Origin: Spirochaetota bacterium
Lineage (GTDB): Bacteria > Spirochaetota > Brevinematia > Brevinematales > Brevinemataceae
Assembly (NCBI GenBank): GCA_030154445.1
Contig: JAGUQW010000006.1
Location: 62,001-126,000, forward strand
Length of the DNA stretch: 64,000 bases
Direction of reading: 5' to 3'
Within the stretch, counting starts at the first letter, position 1, and each line of letters opens with the position of its first letter. Under the pieces are notes generated by a model. It searched no databases, had not been told where the DNA came from, and worked only from the letters and a program-made list of their open reading frames with translations. This document shows, piece after piece, positions 1,780-46,535 of the stretch. The translations under genes and the position numbers were made by a program.

Positions 1780-4218
1780 TTGAAATTTTTTATAAGATTT
1801 TTTTTAGTTATAAGTTGTTTCGTCACACCTTATATATACTCACAAGATATATCAAAAATTATAGCAGAAATTAAGTTCCAAGGACTTAAATCAACAAGTG
1901 AAAGCGATGTTCTAAATGCTATTCAATTACGACCTGGAGATATATTCACTGCAGAAAAATTAAACTTTGCACTAAAAGATTTATATGCTATGCAGCGATT
2001 TCAAACAGCAAGAGTTGAGGTAAATAACACAAAATTTGGTGCAGTAATAACTTTTATTGTATCTGAAGAATCATTAATAGATAAGATTATATTTGAAGGT
2101 GTATCTCGTTTTAAATCAGGAAAATTAAAAGATGAAATCGATCTTAAAGAAGGAATGGCTTTTAGGGAAGCTGCAGTTCGAGCTGCTGTCTATACTTTGA
2201 AGCGATACTTTGAAAAAGAAGGTAATTTAGAAGCAGAAGTTACCTATCGTTTAGCGCCTATCAAACAATTACCTGGACAATATGATTTAATTTTTGAAGT
2301 TGCAGAAGGTCCGAAAATTGTTGTTCAAGATATTATTTTCACAGGAAATGAATCTTTTAAAGCAAATAAACTTCAAGGAATTATGAAAACTAAAAAGAAA
2401 CTTTGGATTTTCCGTAGTGGTGTGCTTAAAGAAGATGAATTTGCTTTAGACAAAGATATTATCCAAGCTTTTTATCAAGAAAATGGTTTTATGGATATGA
2501 CTATTTCTAATTTTTCTTGGAATACTGAAGATATTGCTGTAACTAATAAACAAGGTGAAATCACTAAAAAAACACGTGGTATTGTCCTAAGAATTGATAT
2601 TAAAGAAGGTTTACCGTACGCTGTTGGTGATTTTTCTTTTGAAAATAACACTATTTTTTCAGATAAAGAATTATTTCAGTATATAACTCTTAAAAAAGGT
2701 GATACCTATAATAAAACTTTAGTAGAACAAACAAGAGCTTTAATTTATAAAAAATATGCAGATAGAGGCTATCTATTTGCAAATATATCTGCTATTCAAG
2801 AAAAAAGAACTGCTAATATTATTGATACAGTTTTTGTTATATATGAAGGATCTAGAGCACATATAGAAAATATAAATGTTCGTGGTAATACAAAAACACT
2901 ACCAAGTGTTATTAAAAGATATATCCAAATTAAAGAAGGTGAACTATATATTAATAACAAACTTGAGCAAAGTTATAATAGACTTATGCAAACACAATTC
3001 TTTTCAGATGTTCGAGTAGAACCATCTCCAGGAAGTGCAGATGGTTTAGTTAATGTAGACTTTGTTGTTACAGAACAACAAACAGGTATGATAGAATTTC
3101 TTGTTGGTTATGGAACTGTTAGTGGATTTAGTGGTGGTATTAAATTATCAGAAAAAAATATGTTTGGACGTGGATTACAGATTTCTATACGTGGAGAATA
3201 CGGTGAAAATAGACAATTAGGTGAGATAACATTTACAGAACCATCTATTTTTAATTCTCCTTTTTCCATAAGTTTTATAGTTGGTGTTTTTAACAATCAA
3301 TATGTAGATATGCCTACAGATGAAAATCGAGATGGAATTATTGATGGAACAGATTTTGATTATGTCTTAGATGCTGATGGTGTACTAAATAGTTACGAGT
3401 CTGATAATAAGTATACAAGATTGAGCTTTCGTATTGGTTTGGCAGTTGGTATTCAGTTTGCTGTTTATTGGAATGCTAATGTTGGTTATGAGATTAATAT
3501 CTTTAAAGACTATCAAGCGACTTTCTCCACACCTCTAAAGTATGATGGTATTTGGCAAATAGATGATAATTTAATTGATTCACTTGCAGATGGAGAAAAT
3601 AGTTGGACATTACAAACTAGTATTTATACAACATTACGATTTAATAATACTGATGGTGGTTTATGGCCTACCAAAGGTATTAATACAGCTGTATTTGCAT
3701 CCTTTTCTGGAGGTATCCTAGGTGGAGATATTCATTTTATTAACTTAACATATAGTTTTGACTATTATATCAAACCATTTTGGGAATTAACAGTAGCTTT
3801 TCATTATGATATGGGATTTTTATTTCCTCAAATAGGACAAAAATTTTCTTTTAGAGATGCTAATTTAATGAATTTTGATGGTGTTTATAAAATGCGTGGT
3901 TGGTTAAATTACTTAACTAAAGGTGAAGGATCTTCTTATTTCTCTATTGAAACTCGTATACCTATTTGGAGTTTTATAGGAGCTGTTGCATTCTGGGATT
4001 ATGGAGCTATTTTTGCTAACTGGGAAGACTTTTCTTGGAGAAGACCTAATTATATTATGAGTTTTGGACTTGGTTTGGCTATTAATTTACCAGTATTACC
4101 GATACGGCTTTATGCAGCTCGTCCTGTAGAATGGAGAGGTACTTCGTTCCAACTTGCAAATAATCCAAATTTTTGGGAAGGATGGGAATTTGTTTTCTCA
4201 ATTCAAGGTTTATTTTAA
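1780..4218 (+). CDS. bamA: BamA, outer-membrane protein assembly factor
   Basis: BamA is the essential Omp85-family barrel that folds beta-barrel proteins into the outer membrane. I place the start at the TTG at 1780: GGAG lies at 1769-1772, and the protein then opens with a clean signal peptide (KFFIRFFLVISCF...YIYSQ). An ATG 48 bases upstream is in frame but has no ribosome site and would bury the signal. The 812-residue product has about five POTRA repeats (roughly residues 25-430) followed by a 16-strand surface-antigen barrel. The barrel includes a VAFWDYGAIF-like late strand and ends in an aromatic residue (IQGLF). A loop near the start of the barrel carries a DENRDGIIDGTD sequence that matches an EF-hand calcium loop. 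A long perfect hairpin terminator follows immediately. Confidence 0.95.
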   Translation: MKFFIRFFLVISCFVTPYIYSQDISKIIAEIKFQGLKSTSESDVLNAIQLRPGDIFTAEKLNFALKDLYAMQRFQTARVEVNNTKFGAVITFIVSEESLIDKIIFEGVSRFKSGKLKDEIDLKEGMAFREAAVRAAVYTLKRYFEKEGNLEAEVTYRLAPIKQLPGQYDLIFEVAEGPKIVVQDIIFTGNESFKANKLQGIMKTKKKLWIFRSGVLKEDEFALDKDIIQAFYQENGFMDMTISNFSWNTEDIAVTNKQGEITKKTRGIVLRIDIKEGLPYAVGDFSFENNTIFSDKELFQYITLKKGDTYNKTLVEQTRALIYKKYADRGYLFANISAIQEKRTANIIDTVFVIYEGSRAHIENINVRGNTKTLPSVIKRYIQIKEGELYINNKLEQSYNRLMQTQFFSDVRVEPSPGSADGLVNVDFVVTEQQTGMIEFLVGYGTVSGFSGGIKLSEKNMFGRGLQISIRGEYGENRQLGEITFTEPSIFNSPFSISFIVGVFNNQYVDMPTDENRDGIIDGTDFDYVLDADGVLNSYESDNKYTRLSFRIGLAVGIQFAVYWNANVGYEINIFKDYQATFSTPLKYDGIWQIDDNLIDSLADGENSWTLQTSIYTTLRFNNTDGGLWPTKGINTAVFASFSGGILGGDIHFINLTYSFDYYIKPFWELTVAFHYDMGFLFPQIGQKFSFRDANLMNFDGVYKMRGWLNYLTKGEGSSYFSIETRIPIWSFIGAVAFWDYGAIFANWEDFSWRRPNYIMSFGLGLAINLPVLPIRLYAARPVEWRGTSFQLANNPNFWEGWEFVFSIQGLF

Positions 4219-4230
4219 TAAAAAAAATAG

Positions 4231-4280
4231 TTACAACATAAAAAAAACAGTCTATTAAGACTGTTTTTTTTATGTTGTAA
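4231..4280. terminator. Bidirectional terminator with perfect 23-bp arms
   Basis: Arms at 4231-4253 and 4258-4280 are exact reverse complements with a 4-base loop. The GC-rich tip (CAGTCT/AGACTG) is followed on either strand by a T tract. The pairing continues through the A/T tracts into ten more mirrored bases (ttacaacata/tatgttgtaa). It ends bamA on the plus strand and the lipoprotein gene on the minus strand. Confidence 0.85.
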
Positions 4281-4286
4281 AAATCA

Positions 4287-4619
4287 CTAATTTAGATATA
4301 AAGAAAAAGAATTTTGTCCATTTTCTTCGTTTATTGTTAGTTTGTTACCATTAATATGAAACTCTGCTTTTGTATAAACACCTATGTTATGTTCCATATA
4401 ATAAGCAGTATTTTGATCTATAACTTCATTTATTTTGAGAGGAATAGAACCACCGATAAATACGAATTCTTTTCCATCATTAGAAAACCTACCTCTTTCA
4501 TTAATAAAAGCTTCTGTATCATAAGCAATTTTACCTTTTACTTGATTTAAAAAATGTTCTTTTGGGACACTGGAACAAGAAGTTGAAAAAACACTCAATA
4601 AGATTAATAATTTTATCAT
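4287..4619 (-). CDS. Small lipoprotein, member of the local paralogous family
   Basis: A 110-residue predicted lipoprotein. I place the start at 4619, not at an upstream in-frame ATG, because AAGGAG lies 6 bases before it and the product then opens MIKLLILLSVFSTSC, a short signal peptide with a relaxed spirochaete-like lipobox. After the cysteine, the sequence FLNQVKGKI resembles the F-[LI]-x(3)-G-[TK]-Y core seen in the other small lipoproteins at 6-8 kb. The rest is polar and beta-rich, with SFSLYLN at the end. I recognise no known domain. It lies downstream of flaB but is separated from it by a strong terminator, so it probably has its own promoter. Confidence 0.7.
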   Translation of the reverse strand: MIKLLILLSVFSTSCSSVPKEHFLNQVKGKIAYDTEAFINERGRFSNDGKEFVFIGGSIPLKINEVIDQNTAYYMEHNIGVYTKAEFHINGNKLTINEENGQNSFSLYLN

Positions 4620-36329: not shown

Positions 36330-37793
36330 ATGGGATTATTTCAAGAATTACCAGAAAATAGTTATATAAGAAAACTTCTAATAGGTGTAGATGATGCCTT
36401 TGCTGAGCGATTTTTACAAATGAAAAAAAATTATGAAACAGCTACTGATAAAGAAGATAAACGCATATACAGAGATAAACTGGGAAATATGTTTTGGGAA
36501 TTATATCCTATGATTGCCAAGATGATAAATCCAGAACTAAGTACTGCTAAAAGATTGTTTTTACGCTATGGATTAGTTGATCTTAGAAGTTTATCACCAG
36601 AAGATCAGAAATTTATTTTGAATCAATCCTTAAACCCAGTGAATTACGAGGAAGAGACAGTTTTTTATGCTGATGAATGGCTTCAAGGAATAGTCGATGG
36701 CAAAATAAAACCGTCAGCTACTGATGAAACAGAAGGTCCTAAAATATCACAAATCCAACCTCACCAAGTAAATGCCAAACAAGAAAAGTATGTTTCTTTA
36801 TTAAATGTAGAGCGTAGTCGATTTGAAGGATTTAAACAACAAAGAAATGATTTATTACAAAAAATCGATAATGGATTAAAGGTATTAACAGAATTACATG
36901 CAGATCCAGAAACACAAATAGAAGGCCTCTATACATTTGAACAAAATAAAGCACTAGATGATATTCCAGCTTTTCATAAAGAAATTAAAAAGATTAATAA
37001 AGAAATGGTATTGAGTGCACGAGCGATGGTTAAAGCTCAAGAATCTCTTGGCGAATTACAAACGGTAGAAGGTGGTGGTGAACTATCATCACCAAGCAAT
37101 CATAAAGATATAGATAGTTTAATATCTGAGGTTAGTAATTTCCGACAAATGGTTAAAATGTCGGTAGGGCGTAAGGGGAATCCATTTCCTTTACTAACTT
37201 CTGGATTCTTGCCAAAAGGAAGTAGGGATTTTCTCTTTAGAGATATAGTAAAGAAAAAGTTAAATCAGTGGTTAGCCTTAGATCCAGAAGCTTTTCATCG
37301 TATCTATAAGGGTGAAACAATGAATATTATGCCTTATATGATCTTAGTACCTGGTTATGGAAATATAGGAGCTTGTTGGGAAGCTTTGGATAGTGATAAT
37401 AAAAAATTTGGAAGAGGTAGAATGGTTCTTCCTATTTTTACAAGATCTGCAGATCTATCTTTACTTACTGGTATTGGTGATATTCGATGGCAAGCTGCGA
37501 AAGAAATTGCTTCTTACTATTGGATGGAAGAAGGATTAACAGGTCGTTATTATGAATATTATCTTGAAGCCAAGCTCAAAGGTGATCTAAAAACATTATT
37601 TATTACCGATTATCTTTTGTGGATGACAAAAGAAACGCAAGGTGTTCAGAAATTAGAACAAAATTCACGCTATGTATTTTGGCGATATGTGCCTCTTCCT
37701 ACAGAGAACAAAGTACAACTCAGTAAGAAAGGTTATTATTACAATCAACTTTGGGAAAAAGAACAAGTCTGGCGTCAGAATAAAGATAAATAA
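36330..37793 (+). CDS. Large cytoplasmic protein of unknown function
   Basis: A 487-residue protein with no signal peptide or membrane segment, which I cannot assign to a family. The N-terminal third is helical (ENSYIRKLLIGVDDAFAERF). The middle (~150-250) is lysine/glutamate/glutamine-rich with coiled-coil character (ERSRFEGFKQQRNDLLQKID). The C-terminal ~200 residues are more conserved in appearance: GNPFPLLTSGFLPKGSRDFL, MILVPGYGNIGACWEALD, GRGRMVLPIFTRSADLSLL and IASYYWMEEGLTGRYYEYY. GAGG lies before the ATG. It stands alone between murI (divergent) and a terminator. Confidence 0.8.
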   Translation: MGLFQELPENSYIRKLLIGVDDAFAERFLQMKKNYETATDKEDKRIYRDKLGNMFWELYPMIAKMINPELSTAKRLFLRYGLVDLRSLSPEDQKFILNQSLNPVNYEEETVFYADEWLQGIVDGKIKPSATDETEGPKISQIQPHQVNAKQEKYVSLLNVERSRFEGFKQQRNDLLQKIDNGLKVLTELHADPETQIEGLYTFEQNKALDDIPAFHKEIKKINKEMVLSARAMVKAQESLGELQTVEGGGELSSPSNHKDIDSLISEVSNFRQMVKMSVGRKGNPFPLLTSGFLPKGSRDFLFRDIVKKKLNQWLALDPEAFHRIYKGETMNIMPYMILVPGYGNIGACWEALDSDNKKFGRGRMVLPIFTRSADLSLLTGIGDIRWQAAKEIASYYWMEEGLTGRYYEYYLEAKLKGDLKTLFITDYLLWMTKETQGVQKLEQNSRYVFWRYVPLPTENKVQLSKKGYYYNQLWEKEQVWRQNKDK

Positions 37794-37863: not shown

Positions 37864-38343
37864 TTATAAAGTAACCTGCATAATAAGCTCACCGGCTTTT
37901 ACTATTCCAGAATTTTTGATAATTTGTAATGTTGCTGTTTCTGGTTTTTCTACGATAATAACAGGGGTAATAAGCGTTGAAACTTTGGATAACAGAGTTT
38001 CTTTGTTAAAGGAAATTAGAGGAGTTTGATTTTTTACAAATCCTTGTAAAGGGGCTAAAGCTTTAAAACCCTCTCCATTCAATTGAACAGTATCCATACC
38101 TATATGTACGATAGCTTCTATAGTACCATCATTACAACCGATAGCATGTAATGTATGGAAAATATTCACTTCACAATCAAAAGGTGAATAAAGAGTATCT
38201 TGGGTAGGATTAATACAAATACCTTCTCCCATCATTCCTTGTGCAAATGCTGCATCAGGAGATGCAGATAATGGTAAAATTTCTCCATCTAAAGGAGAAT
38301 ATATATTGATGACTTTAGGAGTCTTTTTTAAAAAATTAAACAT
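37864..38343 (-). CDS. crr: PTS glucose/GlcNAc-type EIIA component (Crr-like)
   Basis: A soluble phosphocarrier of the glucose-family phosphotransferase system, passing phosphate from HPr to EIIB. The 159-residue protein has the family pattern YSPLDGEILPLS, AFAQGMMGEGICI, HTLHAIG (H66) and the active site IVHIGMDTVQLNGEGF (H80). A stand-alone EIIA of this type fits the EIICB without an A domain at 44997-46535. GAGG lies before the ATG. It is divergent from the nag operon, and its promoter carries a perfect palindrome on the -10 box. Confidence 0.93.
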   Translation of the reverse strand: MFNFLKKTPKVINIYSPLDGEILPLSASPDAAFAQGMMGEGICINPTQDTLYSPFDCEVNIFHTLHAIGCNDGTIEAIVHIGMDTVQLNGEGFKALAPLQGFVKNQTPLISFNKETLLSKVSTLITPVIIVEKPETATLQIIKNSGIVKAGELIMQVTL

Positions 38344-38406: not shown

Positions 38407-38410
38407 CTAT

Positions 38411-38456
38411 AATATATAATATATATATTATATATATTATATATATTATATATTTT
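38411..38456. repeat. A/T-only tandem repeat, about 9-base unit (TATATATTA)n
   Basis: A run with no G or C made of repeating TATATATTA units lies between the divergent EIIA and nag promoters. It should melt easily and could vary in length. Confidence 0.6.
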
Positions 38457-38468
38457 CTTATTTTAAAT

Positions 38469-38496
38469 TTGCATAAAAATTAAAACATGTTATGAT
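38469..38496 (+). promoter_or_regulatory. Promoter of the nag/pts operon
   Basis: TTGCAT (38469-38474), 16 bases, TATGAT (38491-38496), about 32 bases upstream of the start of the first NagB-like gene. Confidence 0.45.
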
Positions 38497-38527: not shown

Positions 38528-39280
38528 ATGCAATTAAAAGTGCTCCTGAATAGGCATGAATTAGTAGTCTCTGCAACAAAAATACTTGTTGAAAAAATCA
38601 ATAATAATCAAAAAGAATATTTTGTATTGGGTTTGTCTACAGGATCTACAGTATTAAGTATTTGTGAAGAGTTAGTACAATATGTACAAGTAGATCAGGT
38701 TTCTTTAAAAAAACTTATTGTTTTTTATGCTGGGGAATTTGTTGGATATTCAAAAAAGATGCAACAAAAATATTTTGAATTATTACAAAATAATTTTTTT
38801 TCTAAGATTGATATCCTTCCTCAAAATATTTATACTTTAAATGGAATTGCTGAAGATCTTTCTATAGAATGTAAAAAATATGAGCAAAAAATTGTAGAAT
38901 TAGGTGGAATAGATTTTTTCTTAGGTTCTTTAGGATCAATGGGTGAATTAGCTTTTAATGGACCTGGATCTTCCTTGCATTCTCGGACAAGACTAAAAAC
39001 ATTGACATCAGAAACAATCAAAGCTGATGCTCGTTTTTTTGGAGAAGATACTTCTAAAGTTCCTTCACAAGCTTTAACAATGGGAATAAGCACTATTTAT
39101 GACTCTAAAGAAATATTGATAGTAGTCTATGGAATACAAAAAGCTTTTGCGATTAGATCTTGTTTGGAAAAACCAATTTCTAATATGAGTCCTGCCTCTA
39201 TTTTACAAATGCATCCTAAAACTACCTTTATGGTAGATAAAGTTGCTGGTAGATTATTAACAACATTGATTAATGAATGA
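38528..39280 (+). CDS. NagB-like protein lacking all catalytic residues
   Basis: A 250-residue homologue of glucosamine-6-phosphate deaminase. The fold is clear (VLGLSTGSTVLS, IDFFLGSLGSMGELAFNGPGSSLHSRTR), but compared with E. coli NagB the four catalytic positions have changed. D72 is G69 (FYAGEFVG for FNMDEYVG), D141 is M138, H143 is E140 and E148 is G145. The phosphate-binding SxGST and SSLxSRTR parts remain, so it may still bind a sugar phosphate. A sensor, an allosteric partner of the next gene's NagB domain, or decay are all possible. GAGG precedes the ATG at 38528, and the next gene follows after 30 bases. Confidence 0.8.
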   Translation: MQLKVLLNRHELVVSATKILVEKINNNQKEYFVLGLSTGSTVLSICEELVQYVQVDQVSLKKLIVFYAGEFVGYSKKMQQKYFELLQNNFFSKIDILPQNIYTLNGIAEDLSIECKKYEQKIVELGGIDFFLGSLGSMGELAFNGPGSSLHSRTRLKTLTSETIKADARFFGEDTSKVPSQALTMGISTIYDSKEILIVVYGIQKAFAIRSCLEKPISNMSPASILQMHPKTTFMVDKVAGRLLTTLINE

Positions 39281-39310
39281 ATTGCCTGAATTTGAACATA
39301 GGAGAAGGGG

Positions 39311-41272
39311 ATGAGATTAATTATCACAGAAGAACATGTTGGTGATTGGGCTGCCTATTTTATAGCAAAAAGAATACTTGATTTTAACCCTACAGAGCAA
39401 AATCCTTTTATTTTGGGAATACCTGGGGGTGGGACTGTCTTACCTATGTATGAAAGACTTGTTCAGTTTCATAGAGATGGGGTATTATCTTTTAAAAATA
39501 TAGTTTTTTTTAATACAGGAGAGTATTTAGGGATATCTCCCTCTAATGTTAATAGTTTTTACTCAACTATTAATACAAGATTTTTTAATTTTGTTGATGC
39601 AGAACTCAAAAATATTCATTTACTAAATTCTTTGGCAGAAGATATAAAAGAAGAAGGGCAACGCTACGAAGAATTAATCAAATCTTACGGGGGTGTTCAC
39701 TTGTGGATTTGTGGCTTGGGAGATGATGGACATTTGGCATTTAATGAACCGGGCTCTTCTTTAACATCACGCACAAGAGATAAAGAATTAACTTTTGAAA
39801 CGCGTGTTGCGAATGCAAAATTTTTTAACGGCAAGGTAGAATTAGTTCCCAAAATCGCATTAACTATTGGAGTGGGAACACTTCTCGATGCACAAGAAAT
39901 TGTCGTATTAGCTCAAGGCTCTGCCAAAGCAAGGGCTTTACAAGTAAGTATTGAAGAAGGAATCAATCATCTATATCCTGCTTCAGCATTGCAAATGCAT
40001 ACAAAAGCAACATTTGTTGCAAGTGAAGAAGCTGTAGTAGATATTAGAGTCAGAACTTATCGGTATCATAAAGAAGTAGAAGCTAAAAATATTCATCCCA
40101 AAATTTTGATTAAAGGATTGTATAAATCTTATTATGCGTTAGTTAATGCTAGAGTATTTGACGGTGATAAGTTTCTTGATAATGCAACAGTGATTATTGA
40201 AAATGATAGAATAAAAAGTATAGAAATGGATTCTTCTTTAGATATTGTTATGACAAAAATAGATCTCAAAGGAAAAATAATTGTTCCTGGATACATAGAT
40301 CTTCAAGTTAATGGTTGTGGTGGAGCTGATATTAATCATGATATTTCTTTAGATACTTTACAAGTATTACACGAAACAAATATCAAACATGGAGTAACAT
40401 CTATAGCACCAACATTAATTACAACAAGTGATGAGCGTATTTTAGAAGCTATAGATCTTATTAATCATCTCGAAAATCCAGAATTATTGGGAATTATTGC
40501 TTGGCATTTTGAAGGACCATATCTTTCTAAAATCAAAAAAGGTATTCACGAAGAAAAATATATTAGAAAGCCATCTATAGCAATTTTAGATGCGATTATA
40601 AATACTAATATTTCACGCAAAATAGTCACCTTAGCCCCAGAAGAAGTAGATAGTGTGCATATCAAAAAATTAGCAGATGCTGGTGTAATTGTTTCTATGG
40701 GTCATACTAATGGGACTTTTGCTCAAATATCAGAAAAAATACCTAGTGGTCTTACTATGGCGACACATTTGTACAATGCCATGAAACCTTTTGACTCTCG
40801 AGAACCGGGAGCTGTAGGAACAGTGTTGGAAAGCGATAATATTTATGCAGGAATTATTGTAGATGGAATTCATTGTAATTATGCTTCTGTGGATATAGCT
40901 TACAAATCATTAGGAGATCATCTATTTTTGGTGAGCGATTCATCTGCTCCTGCAGGTACTGATATAAAAGAATTTGAATTTGGTGGACGGAAAATTTATC
41001 ATAGAGATGGTAGATGTATTGCTGAAGATGGTACTTTAGCTGGAGTTGCTATTTTGATGGATAAATGTGTTCAGAATTTAGTGAAGTATGTCAAAGTACC
41101 ACTAGAAGATGCTTTTAGAATGGCTTCTCTTTATCCAGCGCGTTCTATTAACAAAGATGATGAATATGGATATCTCAAACCTGGTTATAAGGCTGATATT
41201 ACCATATTAGATACAGATTTGAAAGTACATGGTGTAGTATCGAATGGACGCTATATACCAGTTGAAAATTAA
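39311..41272 (+). CDS. NagB-NagA fusion: GlcN6P deaminase-like and GlcNAc6P deacetylase domains
   Basis: A 653-residue fusion. Residues 1-260 align closely along their length with NagB and keep D139, H141 and E146 in GDDGHLAFNEPGSS. The position of the base D72 is G70 (FNTGEYLG). Residues ~272-653 are a NagA amidohydrolase with PGYIDLQVNGCGGADI, HFEGPYLSKIKKGIH, MGHTNGTF, THLYNAMKPF, DGIHC and VSDSSAPAGTD. All metal and catalytic positions expected for NagA are present. NagA deacetylates GlcNAc-6-P to GlcN-6-P, and NagB would convert that to fructose-6-P and ammonia, so the fusion joins consecutive steps. AGGAGAAGG precedes the ATG. Confidence 0.9.
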   Translation: MRLIITEEHVGDWAAYFIAKRILDFNPTEQNPFILGIPGGGTVLPMYERLVQFHRDGVLSFKNIVFFNTGEYLGISPSNVNSFYSTINTRFFNFVDAELKNIHLLNSLAEDIKEEGQRYEELIKSYGGVHLWICGLGDDGHLAFNEPGSSLTSRTRDKELTFETRVANAKFFNGKVELVPKIALTIGVGTLLDAQEIVVLAQGSAKARALQVSIEEGINHLYPASALQMHTKATFVASEEAVVDIRVRTYRYHKEVEAKNIHPKILIKGLYKSYYALVNARVFDGDKFLDNATVIIENDRIKSIEMDSSLDIVMTKIDLKGKIIVPGYIDLQVNGCGGADINHDISLDTLQVLHETNIKHGVTSIAPTLITTSDERILEAIDLINHLENPELLGIIAWHFEGPYLSKIKKGIHEEKYIRKPSIAILDAIINTNISRKIVTLAPEEVDSVHIKKLADAGVIVSMGHTNGTFAQISEKIPSGLTMATHLYNAMKPFDSREPGAVGTVLESDNIYAGIIVDGIHCNYASVDIAYKSLGDHLFLVSDSSAPAGTDIKEFEFGGRKIYHRDGRCIAEDGTLAGVAILMDKCVQNLVKYVKVPLEDAFRMASLYPARSINKDDEYGYLKPGYKADITILDTDLKVHGVVSNGRYIPVEN

Positions 41273-41308: not shown

Positions 41309-43048
41309 ATGACTACAACTAAAATAAAAGGTATATCCGCTTGCCCAGGAGTTGTTTCAGGAAAAGTATTTATCTTTGCACAACCAGAAATCAAAATTAA
41401 TAATAAAAATATTGTAGAATCACAAATAGAACAAGAAAATCAATTGTTTGATACAGGGCGTACTCAAGCAAAAGAACAATTAGAAAATATCAAGAGAATC
41501 ACTTTAAAAAATATCGGTGTAGCCGAGGCTGAGATTTTTGATGGACATATAGAAATTTTACTTGATGAAAGTATGGAAGAAGAAGTTAAAACATTAATCA
41601 AAGATGAGCTATTTTCTGCTGATAAAGCAACACAAATCGTAGCAGACCAATATATAGAAATGTTTAGTTCTATGGAAGATACTTATATGCGAGAAAGAGC
41701 TGCTGATATGAAAGATATATTTAGACGCCTTGTATCTAATATTTTGGGTATTCATATTCCTCAATTATCAGAAATAGATGAGCCTTCTATTGTGATTGCA
41801 TTTGATTTAACACCTTCTGATACGGCTCAAATGGACAAAGAAAAAGTACTAGGATTTGTAACTGCCGAAGGTGGTGCTACTTCGCATGTTGCTATTATGT
41901 CTCGCACTTTAGTAATTCCTGCCATTGTAGGAGCTAGAGAAATTTTGGATAATGTTCAAAATGGTCAAGATATTATTTTAGATGGTTCTGAAGGTGATAT
42001 TATTATTAATCCAAATGTCGAAGATAAAAAATTTTATGATAACAAACTAAACGAATACAAAAAAGAAGTTCAAAGACTTGCAGGGCTCAAAAATTTACCT
42101 GCTATTACCAAAGATGGAGTAACTATTGATCTCTGTGCTAATGTTGGTACTGATATTGATGCTTTACCGGCATTAGAGCAGGGTGCAAAAGGTGTTGGAT
42201 TGTATCGTAGTGAATTTCTTTATATGGATAGATCCAATTGGCCTTCAGAAGAAGAACAAACAAATGCCTATGCTAATGTAGTTCGTGCCTTTGATAAAGA
42301 TCTTGTTATTATTAGAACACTAGATATTGGTGGTGATAAGAGTTTAGATTATTTTACATTTCCTCATGAATTGAATCCTTTCTTAGGTTGGAGAGCTCTA
42401 AGAGTATGTTTGGATAAAGTTGATATTTTCAAAACTCAATTGAGATCTATTTTACAAGCTTCTGCTCATGGTAAAGTTGGTATTATGTATCCTATGGTTA
42501 TTTCTTTAGAAGAAGTTCAGCGTGCTAATGAATTATTAGAAGAATGTAAAAAAGAACTTTTAGCGGAAGGAATAGATTTTGATCCTAAAATTCAACGAGG
42601 GGTCATGATAGAAACTCCATCAGCAGCAATGATAGCGAATGAATTAGCAGATCTTGTTGATTTCTTTAGTTATGGTACTAATGATCTAACACAGTATACT
42701 CTTGCAGTAGATAGAGGTAACCCACATATTGTTAAGCTATATGATTCATTCCATCCTTCAGTACTGCGTCTTATGGCTCAAGCAACGGCTGCAGCAAATG
42801 CTAAAAATGTTTGGGTTGGTGTTTGTGGAGAATTGGGAGGACATCCTCTTGCTACTTTATTTTTGATAGGTATAGGGGTAAAAGAATTAAGTATGAGTGC
42901 GATTAGTATTCCTAAAATCAAAGAAATTATTCGTGCAACAACAATGACAGAAGCTAAAGAAATTGCTCAAAAAGTTCTTTCTTTAGGTACAGGTGCAGAA
43001 ATACAAAAATTCTTAGAAGAATCACTTGAAAAAGTATTAAATAAATAA
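41309..43048 (+). CDS. ptsI: PTS enzyme I
   Basis: Phosphoenolpyruvate-protein phosphotransferase, the first step of the sugar PTS. It autophosphorylates from PEP and donates to HPr. The 579-residue protein has the phosphohistidine motif GGATSHVAIMS (H193), and the C-terminal PEP-binding barrel with GLYRSEFLY, GVMIETPSAA, FFSYGTNDLTQYTLAVDR and VCGELGGHP (the conserved cysteine acid). GGAG precedes the ATG. It is between the nag genes and ptsH in one operon, so general PTS proteins are tied to amino-sugar use here. Confidence 0.96.
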   Translation: MTTTKIKGISACPGVVSGKVFIFAQPEIKINNKNIVESQIEQENQLFDTGRTQAKEQLENIKRITLKNIGVAEAEIFDGHIEILLDESMEEEVKTLIKDELFSADKATQIVADQYIEMFSSMEDTYMRERAADMKDIFRRLVSNILGIHIPQLSEIDEPSIVIAFDLTPSDTAQMDKEKVLGFVTAEGGATSHVAIMSRTLVIPAIVGAREILDNVQNGQDIILDGSEGDIIINPNVEDKKFYDNKLNEYKKEVQRLAGLKNLPAITKDGVTIDLCANVGTDIDALPALEQGAKGVGLYRSEFLYMDRSNWPSEEEQTNAYANVVRAFDKDLVIIRTLDIGGDKSLDYFTFPHELNPFLGWRALRVCLDKVDIFKTQLRSILQASAHGKVGIMYPMVISLEEVQRANELLEECKKELLAEGIDFDPKIQRGVMIETPSAAMIANELADLVDFFSYGTNDLTQYTLAVDRGNPHIVKLYDSFHPSVLRLMAQATAAANAKNVWVGVCGELGGHPLATLFLIGIGVKELSMSAISIPKIKEIIRATTMTEAKEIAQKVLSLGTGAEIQKFLEESLEKVLNK

Positions 43049-43080
43049 TATAATATATTAGTTATATTAAGGAGTTGAAA

Positions 43081-43344
43081 ATGAGTTGTATAGAAGTCAC
43101 CATATCAAATGAAACAGGTTTGCATACAAGACCTGGTAATGAACTAGTTAAACTTGTAAAAAGTTTTGAAGGTTCTACAATAGAATTAGAAAAAGGTGAT
43201 AGAAAAGTTATTGGTAATTCTTTACTCAAAATCATGTCTTTAGCTGTGAAAAAGGGAGATATGTTAAAAATACATATTTCTGGTGGAGATGAAGCAAAAA
43301 TTGGAGAACAGTTAGTTTCTTTCTTTGCAAATCTTAAAGATTAA
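43081..43344 (+). CDS. ptsH: PTS phosphocarrier protein HPr
   Basis: An 87-residue HPr that carries phosphate from EI to EIIA on H15, seen in TGLHTRPGNELV. The usual GLHARPA has glycine for the last alanine here. The Ser-46 region is NSLLKIMSLAV (S47), so regulatory serine phosphorylation is possible, but no HPr kinase lies in the window. I set the start at the ATG at 43081, six bases after AAGGAG; the TTG two codons upstream touches the ribosome site. Last gene of the nag/pts operon. Confidence 0.93.
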   Translation: MSCIEVTISNETGLHTRPGNELVKLVKSFEGSTIELEKGDRKVIGNSLLKIMSLAVKKGDMLKIHISGGDEAKIGEQLVSFFANLKD

Positions 43345-43362
43345 TTTTTAATATTTAAAATG

Positions 43363-43395
43363 AAAACACTCTTGGTAATAAACTAAGAGTGTTTT
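43363..43395. terminator. Terminator of the nag/pts operon
   Basis: AAAACACTCTT (43363-43373) pairs with AAGAGTGTTTT (43385-43395) around an 11-base loop, followed by more T residues on the plus strand. Confidence 0.72.
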
Positions 43396-43481
43396 TTTGT
43401 TTGAATACACAGTATATGAAATAACAAAAGAAAAATATACAGGATCTATAATGTATAATCTTTATCAAGTTAGATAATGAT

Positions 43482-44996: not shown

Positions 44997-46535
44997 TTAT
45001 TTTTTCATAAATTTAATCATTTCATTTTTATAAATATCGGATTGAGTCCCAAAAATAGCTTGTGTTCCATTTCCAGAAATAATAATAGCTTTAGCACCTA
45101 ATTCTTTTAATTTATCTTGATTGATGAGACTAACATCCATCACAGAAATTCTTAATCTAGTGATACAAGCATCTGTAGTAGTAATATTGCTAGCACCACC
45201 ATATGCTTCAACAAGTATTTCTGCAATTTCATCGATAGCTACATTTTTTACAGATATTGAGTTTAATTCACGACCAGGGGTTGGGATATTAAAAATTTTA
45301 ATAGCAAAATAAAATACGACAAAATATAGTATTGCCCAAACAATACCCAAGAGAATGAGCATGTATTGGTTATGTCCTAATCCGTAAAGTAGAGTAAAAT
45401 CAATTAGCCCATGAGAGAAAGTTGTACCATGGCGAATATCCATAGGAGTAACAATAAGATATGCTAAAAAGACTAAACCTGCGTGTGCTAAATAGAGTAA
45501 CGGAGCAACGAACATAAATGAAAATTCAATAGGTTCTGTAATACCTGTTATAAATGATGTGAGGGCTGCAGAGATCATTAATCCCATTACGGCTTTACGA
45601 TTTTTTGGTTTTGCACTCAAACCTATAGCAATAGCTGCTGCGGGTAGTCCCCACATTTTGAATAAATATGATGGTGCTAAATTTCCAGCAGTAGGATCTC
45701 CTGAAAGATAACGTGGAATTTCACCTTTTATTAATTCAGCCGGAAGAGCTGTACTAGCAAGAACATCGGAAGCATTTTGAGCTAAATAAGAAATTTCATT
45801 TTGGACACTAAGTAAATTAGCTTTATCAAAATTGCCTATTTCAAAGAAAAAAGGAACATTCCATACATGGTGAACACCAAGAGGAATAAGTAATCTTTCT
45901 AAAAAACCATACATTGGGAAAGCTATATTTGGATTTTCATAAGCTGCCCAGTTTGAAAAATTTTGGATAGCACTGCCAATAGGAGCCCAAATAAATACCA
46001 TTACTACCCCTAAAAGAAGACAAGACAAAGCATTTATAATAAGAACAAATCTTTTTCCTCCAAAAAATCCTAGAATTTCTGGTAATTGAGTATTATAAGT
46101 TCTATTAAAAACAAAAGCAGATAACCCTCCTACTAACAATCCACCAACAGCACCCATATCAAGAGATTGGATATTTAAGATAGATTTTGTTGGAATACTG
46201 TTGATTGTTGCAATAGCCCCTACAGTACCAAGAAAAACTACATAACCAACTAATGTTGCAAGAGCTGCTGCTCCATCATTGTTTGTAAAAGCGATTGCTG
46301 TTGCAATAGCAAATAATAAAGGAAGAATACTAAAAATAGTATCACCAGCAGTTCCCATAACACTAAAAATATTACTTAATATAGGTGATATCGCTATATT
46401 TTGTACTGCAAGAGCTGCTGGTACGCCCACACCTATCCCCAATAATAGACCAGCAACAGGTAGTACCGCAACAGGTAACATTAAAGCTTGCCCAAGTTTT
46501 TGCATGATTTCAAATCCTGAACCATTTTTTGACAT
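44997..46535 (-). CDS. PTS EIICB, glucose/N-acetylglucosamine type
   Basis: A membrane sugar permease plus EIIB domain of the glucose superfamily, 512 residues. The EIIC domain (1-~400) has MLPVAVLPVAGLLLGIGVG, HHVWNVPFFFEIG, GITEPIEFSFMFVAP and the conserved GHNQY region. The EIIB domain (~435-512) carries the phosphocysteine in DACITRLRISV (C457), followed by LGAKAIIISGNGTQAIFG. There is no EIIA domain, so the EIIA at 37864 would complete it. The nag genes next door suggest GlcNAc, but glucose specificity (PtsG) cannot be excluded. GAGGAG precedes the ATG. Confidence 0.92.
   Translation of the reverse strand: MSKNGSGFEIMQKLGQALMLPVAVLPVAGLLLGIGVGVPAALAVQNIAISPILSNIFSVMGTAGDTIFSILPLLFAIATAIAFTNNDGAAALATLVGYVVFLGTVGAIATINSIPTKSILNIQSLDMGAVGGLLVGGLSAFVFNRTYNTQLPEILGFFGGKRFVLIINALSCLLLGVVMVFIWAPIGSAIQNFSNWAAYENPNIAFPMYGFLERLLIPLGVHHVWNVPFFFEIGNFDKANLLSVQNEISYLAQNASDVLASTALPAELIKGEIPRYLSGDPTAGNLAPSYLFKMWGLPAAAIAIGLSAKPKNRKAVMGLMISAALTSFITGITEPIEFSFMFVAPLLYLAHAGLVFLAYLIVTPMDIRHGTTFSHGLIDFTLLYGLGHNQYMLILLGIVWAILYFVVFYFAIKIFNIPTPGRELNSISVKNVAIDEIAEILVEAYGGASNITTTDACITRLRISVMDVSLINQDKLKELGAKAIIISGNGTQAIFGTQSDIYKNEMIKFMKK

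Follow-up and report, generated by a model that had tools for sequence, protein, structure and literature searches.

Tandem NagB-like proteins with glycine at the Asp72 position, one of them fused to NagA, in the Brevinemataceae: a candidate sensing or scaffolding module

What is the role of two tandem NagB-like domains that both have glycine where Escherichia coli glucosamine 6-phosphate (GlcN6P) deaminase has the base Asp72, and one of which is joined to the N-acetylglucosamine 6-phosphate (GlcNAc6P) deacetylase, NagA? This question is raised by a locus within the 64,000-nucleotide stretch of DNA analyzed here (the window), in which a stand-alone NagB-like protein (p1) is followed, after a spacing of 30 bases, by a gene encoding a NagB'-NagA fusion (Table 1). 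The coordinates and residues listed for both in a preliminary description of this DNA are correct, including the glycine at the Asp72 position. The locus was compared across four Brevinemataceae genomes, termed G000 (the genome of the window), G001, G002, and G003, two of which are less than 90% complete. Residue numbering follows the E. coli NagB sequence, taken from a PDB alignment.

The gene order is common to all four genomes, with p1, nagB'A, ptsI, and ptsH in series and crr divergent from them. The start of p1 is assigned to the ATG at 38528, which is preceded by an AGAGG ribosome-binding site (the mechanical open reading frame begins at 38492); in G002, p1 has 256 aa and a GTG start. 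The hairpin 3' of ptsH is the probable end of the operon. In G003, a lactose/cellobiose-type PTS IIA gene follows ptsH (L035, 5132-5500, minus strand), and none was seen at that place in G000-G002. A 487-aa protein encoded beside crr (window 36330-37793, plus strand) resembles proteins encoded close to the locus in G001, G002, and G003, and had zero matches in a Pfam search at 1e-3. A long run of TATAT/ATATT repeats lies between crr and p1 (window ~38410-38455). An Rfam search of the window returned zero matches, and no relatives were found in the viral contigs searched. A scan of genome contigs for a two-short-peptide pattern recovered 2 loci, both from Brevinema MAGs, using patterns that are too short to prove absence elsewhere.

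Table 1. Features of the p1/nagB'A locus and its neighbors, in window coordinates; residue numbers of the NagB-like domains refer to E. coli NagB except where domain limits are given.
Feature	Coordinates	Strand	Basis
p1, stand-alone NagB-like protein, 250 aa; G72, M141, E143, G148	38528..39280	+	TIGR00502 match, alignment, structure model
Gly codon GGG of p1 at the Asp72 position	38732..38734	+	alignment
p1 segment N147-L162	38957..39004	+	alignment
NagB'-NagA fusion, 653 aa	39311..41272	+	ORF and profile matches
NagB' domain of the fusion, residues 1-257; G72, T41G, Y85F, R172K; D141, H143, E148 kept	39311..40081	+	profile and alignment
Gly codon GGA of the fusion at the Asp72 position	39518..39520	+	alignment
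Fusion segment N147-L162; S151, S152, R158, K160 kept, T161 replaced by E	39743..39790	+	alignment
Tyr codon at the Tyr254 position (face NC, allosteric site), fusion only	40064..40066	+	alignment
NagA (GlcNAc6P deacetylase) domain, fusion residues 274-648	40130..41254	+	TIGR00221
ptsI, enzyme I of the PTS, next operon gene	41309..43048	+	profile matches
ptsH (HPr)	43075..43344	+	PF00381
Terminator-like hairpin after ptsH, 15 pairs followed by a T run	43362..43396	+	consensus match only
crr-like glucose-family EIIA, divergent from p1	37864..38343	-	profile matches
PTS IIBC, glucose/GlcNAc type; best model glucose IIBC, every model under its cut-off	44997..46535	-	profile search

The comparison of position 72 in homologs, which the preliminary description had proposed, sets glycine in 8/8 domains (p1 and fusion in the four Brevinemataceae genomes) against aspartate in 94/94 other rows. 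The latter derive from 95 distinct NagB-like frames at other loci of the phylum, 94 of which are full-length (L027 was set aside), and all 94 also have E73, T41, G42, and H143, the third NagB of the Brevinemataceae included. Among the 13 multi-copy genomes, some rows of which repeat genes of the 94, D72 occurs in 29/31 rows. The remaining two, one with Asn and one with His, are distant spirochaete paralogs (L177 and L186, from G356 and G385) whose other motifs are NagB-like. Relatives of the NagB' domain are present in 218/392 genomes of the phylum, with sequences compared for part of these. The adjacent M71 is also altered in 8/8 domains, and is threonine in 4/4 fusions. The glycine at position 72 is not a product of chance or sequencing error. 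A structural alignment placing another acidic residue there had been named as one observation that would overturn the loss of the base; no such residue occurs in the ungapped alignment, and the neighboring E73 is kept as in canonical rows, in a part of the p1 model where pLDDT is below 50.

Other active-site positions differ between the two copies. In p1, residues T41, G42, T44, Y85, R172, and K208 are kept in 4/4 genomes; residues 141/143/148 read M/E/G, M/E/E, T/A/E, and N/N/E across the four, such that H143 is gone throughout (N141 is also found in 11/94 comparison rows). The changes D72G, D141M, H143E, and E148G that were first reported for p1 therefore hold in the window, but E148G is confined to it, as the other three of the four orthologs have glutamate. 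The fusion keeps D141, H143, E148, and K208 in 4/4 genomes, carries T41G, Y85F, and R172K in 4/4, and has E (three genomes) or D (one genome) at position 73. Accordingly, the statement that the phosphate-binding segments remain applies to p1, with T41, G42, T44, R172, and K208, but not to the fusion, with T41G and R172K. A set of 76 near-invariant positions was defined from 72 E. coli-type rows. Of these, 11 (39, 41, 71, 72, 85, 89, 118, 134, 136, 172, and 255) are altered in the fusion domain of every one of the four genomes, and 17, including 71, 72, 137, 141, 143, and 254, in every p1.

The structure model of p1 (mean pLDDT 79.6, pTM 0.82, pLDDT below 50 at residues 72-75) aligns with 3hn6 at Z 31.4 and rmsd 2.5 over 248 aligned residues. 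It matches NagB structures at Z 27-31, 6-phosphogluconolactonases at Z 20-25, and the SorC-family effector domains of CggR, DeoR, and LsrR at Z about 13; the fusion model (mean pLDDT 36.6) was set aside. Both copies resemble the hexameric, GlcNAc6P-activated NagB of the E. coli type in fold, in profile matches over the cut-off, and in their face A residues, and the fusion also in its N terminus and Tyr254. They differ from it by glycine for Asp72 in both, by the loss of ring-opening residues in p1 (H143 in every genome), and, in the fusion, by altered T41, Y85, and R172 and the junction to NagA. The SorC-family effector domains are described in excerpts of PMC11229326 as a NagB fold turned phosphosugar sensor, and a similar passage from enzyme to sensor may have occurred here. 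Unlike the SorC-family regulators, p1 and the fusion are by sequence much closer to true NagB, are tied to an enzyme rather than a promoter, and have no DNA-binding domain by Pfam (Glucosamine_iso only in p1; Glucosamine_iso and amidohydrolase/NagA in the fusion).

We analyzed the descent of the two copies using 46 representatives at <72% identity from the 94 rows, and 43 after dropping three very long rows (L026, L032, and L013). With site 72 masked, p1 and the fusion domain each form a clade (both 100/99), and both clades lie among the E. coli-type NagBs. In the 43-row tree with site 72 masked, a single branch, supported at 89/86, separates p1 plus the fusion domain from the remaining rows, whereas their union had support of 43/0 in the initial tree that included the three long rows. 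Because of the grouping at 89/86, a single inherited loss of Asp72, preceding the duplication, is favored by the phylogeny, although not proven. This bears out the earlier suggestion of a D-to-G change that was inherited (or selected): the two copies have it in common, most likely by inheritance. Nei-Gojobori counts for the pair G000-G001 put dN/dS at about 0.20 in p1, at 0.11 in the NagB' domain, and at 0.12 in NagA (dS of wider pairs is near or at saturation), and the p1 and fusion genes are without stops. Purifying selection acts on both copies.

A third NagB, with D72, N141, H143, E148, and R172, is encoded on another contig of G000 (C12, L002 1438-2205), and has orthologs in G002 and G003; it was not found in G001, the assembly of which is 79% complete. 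This protein groups with B. subtilis-type NagBs, our designation for a group of eight rows in the tree (support 100/97). The preliminary description had called for a check for a canonical nagB elsewhere, and had supposed that, with the deaminase lost, the product of NagA would be left without its usual exit to glycolysis. The check finds a gene with D72, N141, H143, and E148 in G000, G002, and G003; the supposition is not supported, since a NagB with an intact catalytic set in 3/4 genomes leaves that exit in place.

The NagA domain looks intact: its TIGR00221 score is 358.5 bits (cut-off 225.65), and in alignment with 1ymy and 3egj the motifs EGP, GH(T/S)N, THLYNAM, and (V)SD/TD are kept, which presumably hold the residues that bind metal or act as the base. 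It is thus like known NagA in being a full-length domain over the cut-off with its motifs kept, and unlike it in sitting behind a NagB-derived domain. In the one other locus examined in this regard (G304), nagA and nagB are separate neighbors: a 623-aa frame considered as a second NagB-NagA fusion was rejected, as nagA (L143, 2298-3482) and nagB (3491-4288) are separate genes in different frames. Four other long NagB frames (332-379 aa) were inspected by eye, and no second domain was recognizable in them. The fused NagA is the only NagA of G003, and a second NagA-like gene of G000 belongs to a GalNAc-type cluster (AgaS, PTS, deacetylase). Beside this cluster (G000:C7, L047 2730-4013, minus strand) lies a frame that contains three GTDARNTASTGGAGAMS units in tandem, as well as another short repeat (MVADS).

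We take S151 and R158 to be residues of the GlcNAc6P allosteric site. Together with K160, these face A residues are present in 8/8 domains, and no near-invariant position within the stretch 145-162 (0/13) is altered throughout in either copy, versus 25/63 outside it (Fisher p 0.004, a guide only, since this stretch was picked once the literature on the site had been read; p 0.03 for p1 alone and 0.19 for the fusion alone). Tyr254 is kept in 4/4 fusions and gone from 4/4 p1 proteins; likewise, the fusion retains the C-terminal helix region, and p1 is without it. At position 161, the fusion has glutamate in 4/4 genomes, as do 3/71 E. coli-type rows. In E. coli NagB, according to excerpts of PMC4008608, the GlcNAc6P site is composed of face A and face NC, with Tyr254 and the N-terminal amine, and Glu148 swings between His143 and Lys160. 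We take the loop 145-162, which holds S151, R158, and K160, as the likely face A of this site; given the movement of Glu148 in E. coli, the allosteric switch may be the reason why the fusion has kept H143 and E148. As its C-terminal segment and Tyr254 (face NC) are gone, p1 may be unable to form the usual trimer contacts.

No match over the cut-off for GlmS was obtained in the 4/4 Brevinemataceae genomes, all draft assemblies; GlmS is over the cut-off in all 14 of the further genomes examined from the order and class, in 49/60 relatives overall, and in 14/14 controls. The 11/60 relatives without such a match are the four Brevinemataceae and G018, G026, G030, G035, G046, G051, and G057; in G051, a 247-aa stretch matches the C-terminal part of the GlmS model only. 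The loss of GlmS is thus not peculiar to the Brevinemataceae. Weak matches in the Brevinemataceae fall in, e.g., AgaS frames and 470-aa frames that match the amidotransferase half only. Among the other GlmS-negative spirochaetes, several, e.g., G035, G046, G026, and G057, have NagB. MurA is present in 4/4 Brevinemataceae genomes (over two contigs in G001). From these gene contents, the Brevinemataceae seem unable to make amino sugars, and, with GlmS undetected and MurA present, their peptidoglycan is probably built from scavenged GlcNAc. Borrelia is a known GlcNAc scavenger, and the peptidoglycan of B. burgdorferi is said to use scavenged GlcNAc (PMC2845121, in excerpt). Two further candidate signs of an odd amino-sugar route were dropped: GlmM was under the cut-off in 7/7 spirochaetes, and since three of these are from outside the Brevinemataceae the low scores are uninformative on the family; GlmU scores fell below the cut-off in 4/4 Brevinemataceae, in a comparison limited to those four. 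A PF01704 search was uninformative, with zero matches anywhere, controls included.

The earlier idea of a hexosamine-phosphate sensor or a hetero-oligomer is reasonable, and we give an even chance to the reading that p1 and NagB' form, on NagA, a module of NagB origin for GlcNAc6P sensing or scaffolding, and are not a deaminase. By this reading, both would descend from one duplicated, hexameric-type GlcN6P deaminase already without the Asp72 base, and, judging by their residues, would have lost GlcN6P deamination. The retained loop (S151, R158, and K160, to which the fusion adds Tyr254 and the N terminus) would bind GlcNAc6P, the substrate of NagA, and the H143-E148-K160 switch of the fusion would relay this signal to the assembly. 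The NagB fold would thereby be kept as a regulatory or scaffolding module, presumably regulating NagA within a hetero-oligomer, and the deaminase reaction would be left to the separate NagB with its intact catalytic set. Without a detected GlmS, NagA could then feed imported GlcNAc to GlcN6P for the cell wall, with no deaminase draining it in the same complex. Several observations weigh against the sensing or scaffolding module. The fusion keeps three ring-opening residues, beyond the needs of a pure sensor, and in 4/4 genomes has T161 replaced by E within the allosteric site itself; E73 is in principle a possible base; and p1 is without the C-terminal segment and Tyr254. In addition, support for the joint clade is moderate (89/86, or 43/0 with the long rows), and the family is represented by four genomes only, two of them <90% complete.

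It is possible, and we put this forward tentatively, that p1 and NagB' make up a hetero-oligomeric pseudo-deaminase that gauges GlcNAc6P/GlcN6P and gates the fused NagA accordingly, with imported GlcNAc going to the cell wall first in Brevinema and the surplus being burned through the separate NagB. In such an assembly, p1 would supply the kept phosphate pocket, its catalytic residues being lost, and NagB' would supply both allosteric faces and the ring-opening residues. A pure scaffold, in which the NagB-like pair only holds NagA in an oligomer or near HPr/EI and has no relevant ligand, seems unlikely to us. The kept fold and the active-site changes in both copies are consistent with it, as is the C-terminal helix region retained by the fusion, which is common to hexameric NagBs (PMC9812318, in excerpt); however, a mere scaffold would need neither the allosteric loop, which is the best-kept stretch, nor the phosphate-site residues T41, G42, T44, R172, and K208 that p1 keeps in 4/4 genomes.

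We regard as improbable that the fusion domain is still a hexosamine 6-phosphate enzyme, either a ring-opening mutarotase or a deaminase working through another base, e.g., E73. D141, H143, E148, and K208 are kept in 4/4 fusions, position 73 is E in three and D in one, and purifying selection is strong, all of which would suit such an enzyme. T41G, Y85F, R172K, and M71T in 4/4, however, take away invariant residues, and H143 and E148 also take part in the allosteric switch, according to the excerpts of PMC4008608. Furthermore, E73 lies beside D72 in 94/94 canonical rows, and is therefore not a replacement base that arose here. Finally, that the domains are functionless relics, kept only through co-translation or co-transcription with NagA, is disfavored by the selection result (dN/dS 0.11-0.20, no stops) and hardly credible given that p1 has a gene of its own and still occurs, with an open frame, in 4/4 genomes, even though catalytic residues are lost and G148 is found in the window p1 only.

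The fold and the pathway are already known, and the probable novelty is the conserved tandem of Gly72 NagBs, one of them fused to NagA; a literature search over the titles and abstract openings of open-licence papers returned no NagB-NagA fusion and no Gly72 NagB. The locus also shows how automatic annotation can be misled, and here inverted: the Gly72 copies (TIGR00502 scores of 250.5 bits for p1 and 297.6 bits for the fusion) pass the NCBI nagB equivalog cut-off of 236.9, and the intact NagB of G000, at 229.2 bits, falls slightly short of it. If the sensing or scaffolding module is real, nature would offer in it a clear example of a metabolic enzyme disarmed by loss of its base, with the allosteric site kept, and joined to the preceding enzyme of the pathway; a gauge of GlcNAc6P and GlcN6P, if that is the case, would mean that NagB has turned into a regulator of the preceding step in its own pathway. 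Either would bear on how spirochaetes without a detectable GlmS split scarce GlcNAc between the cell wall and energy.
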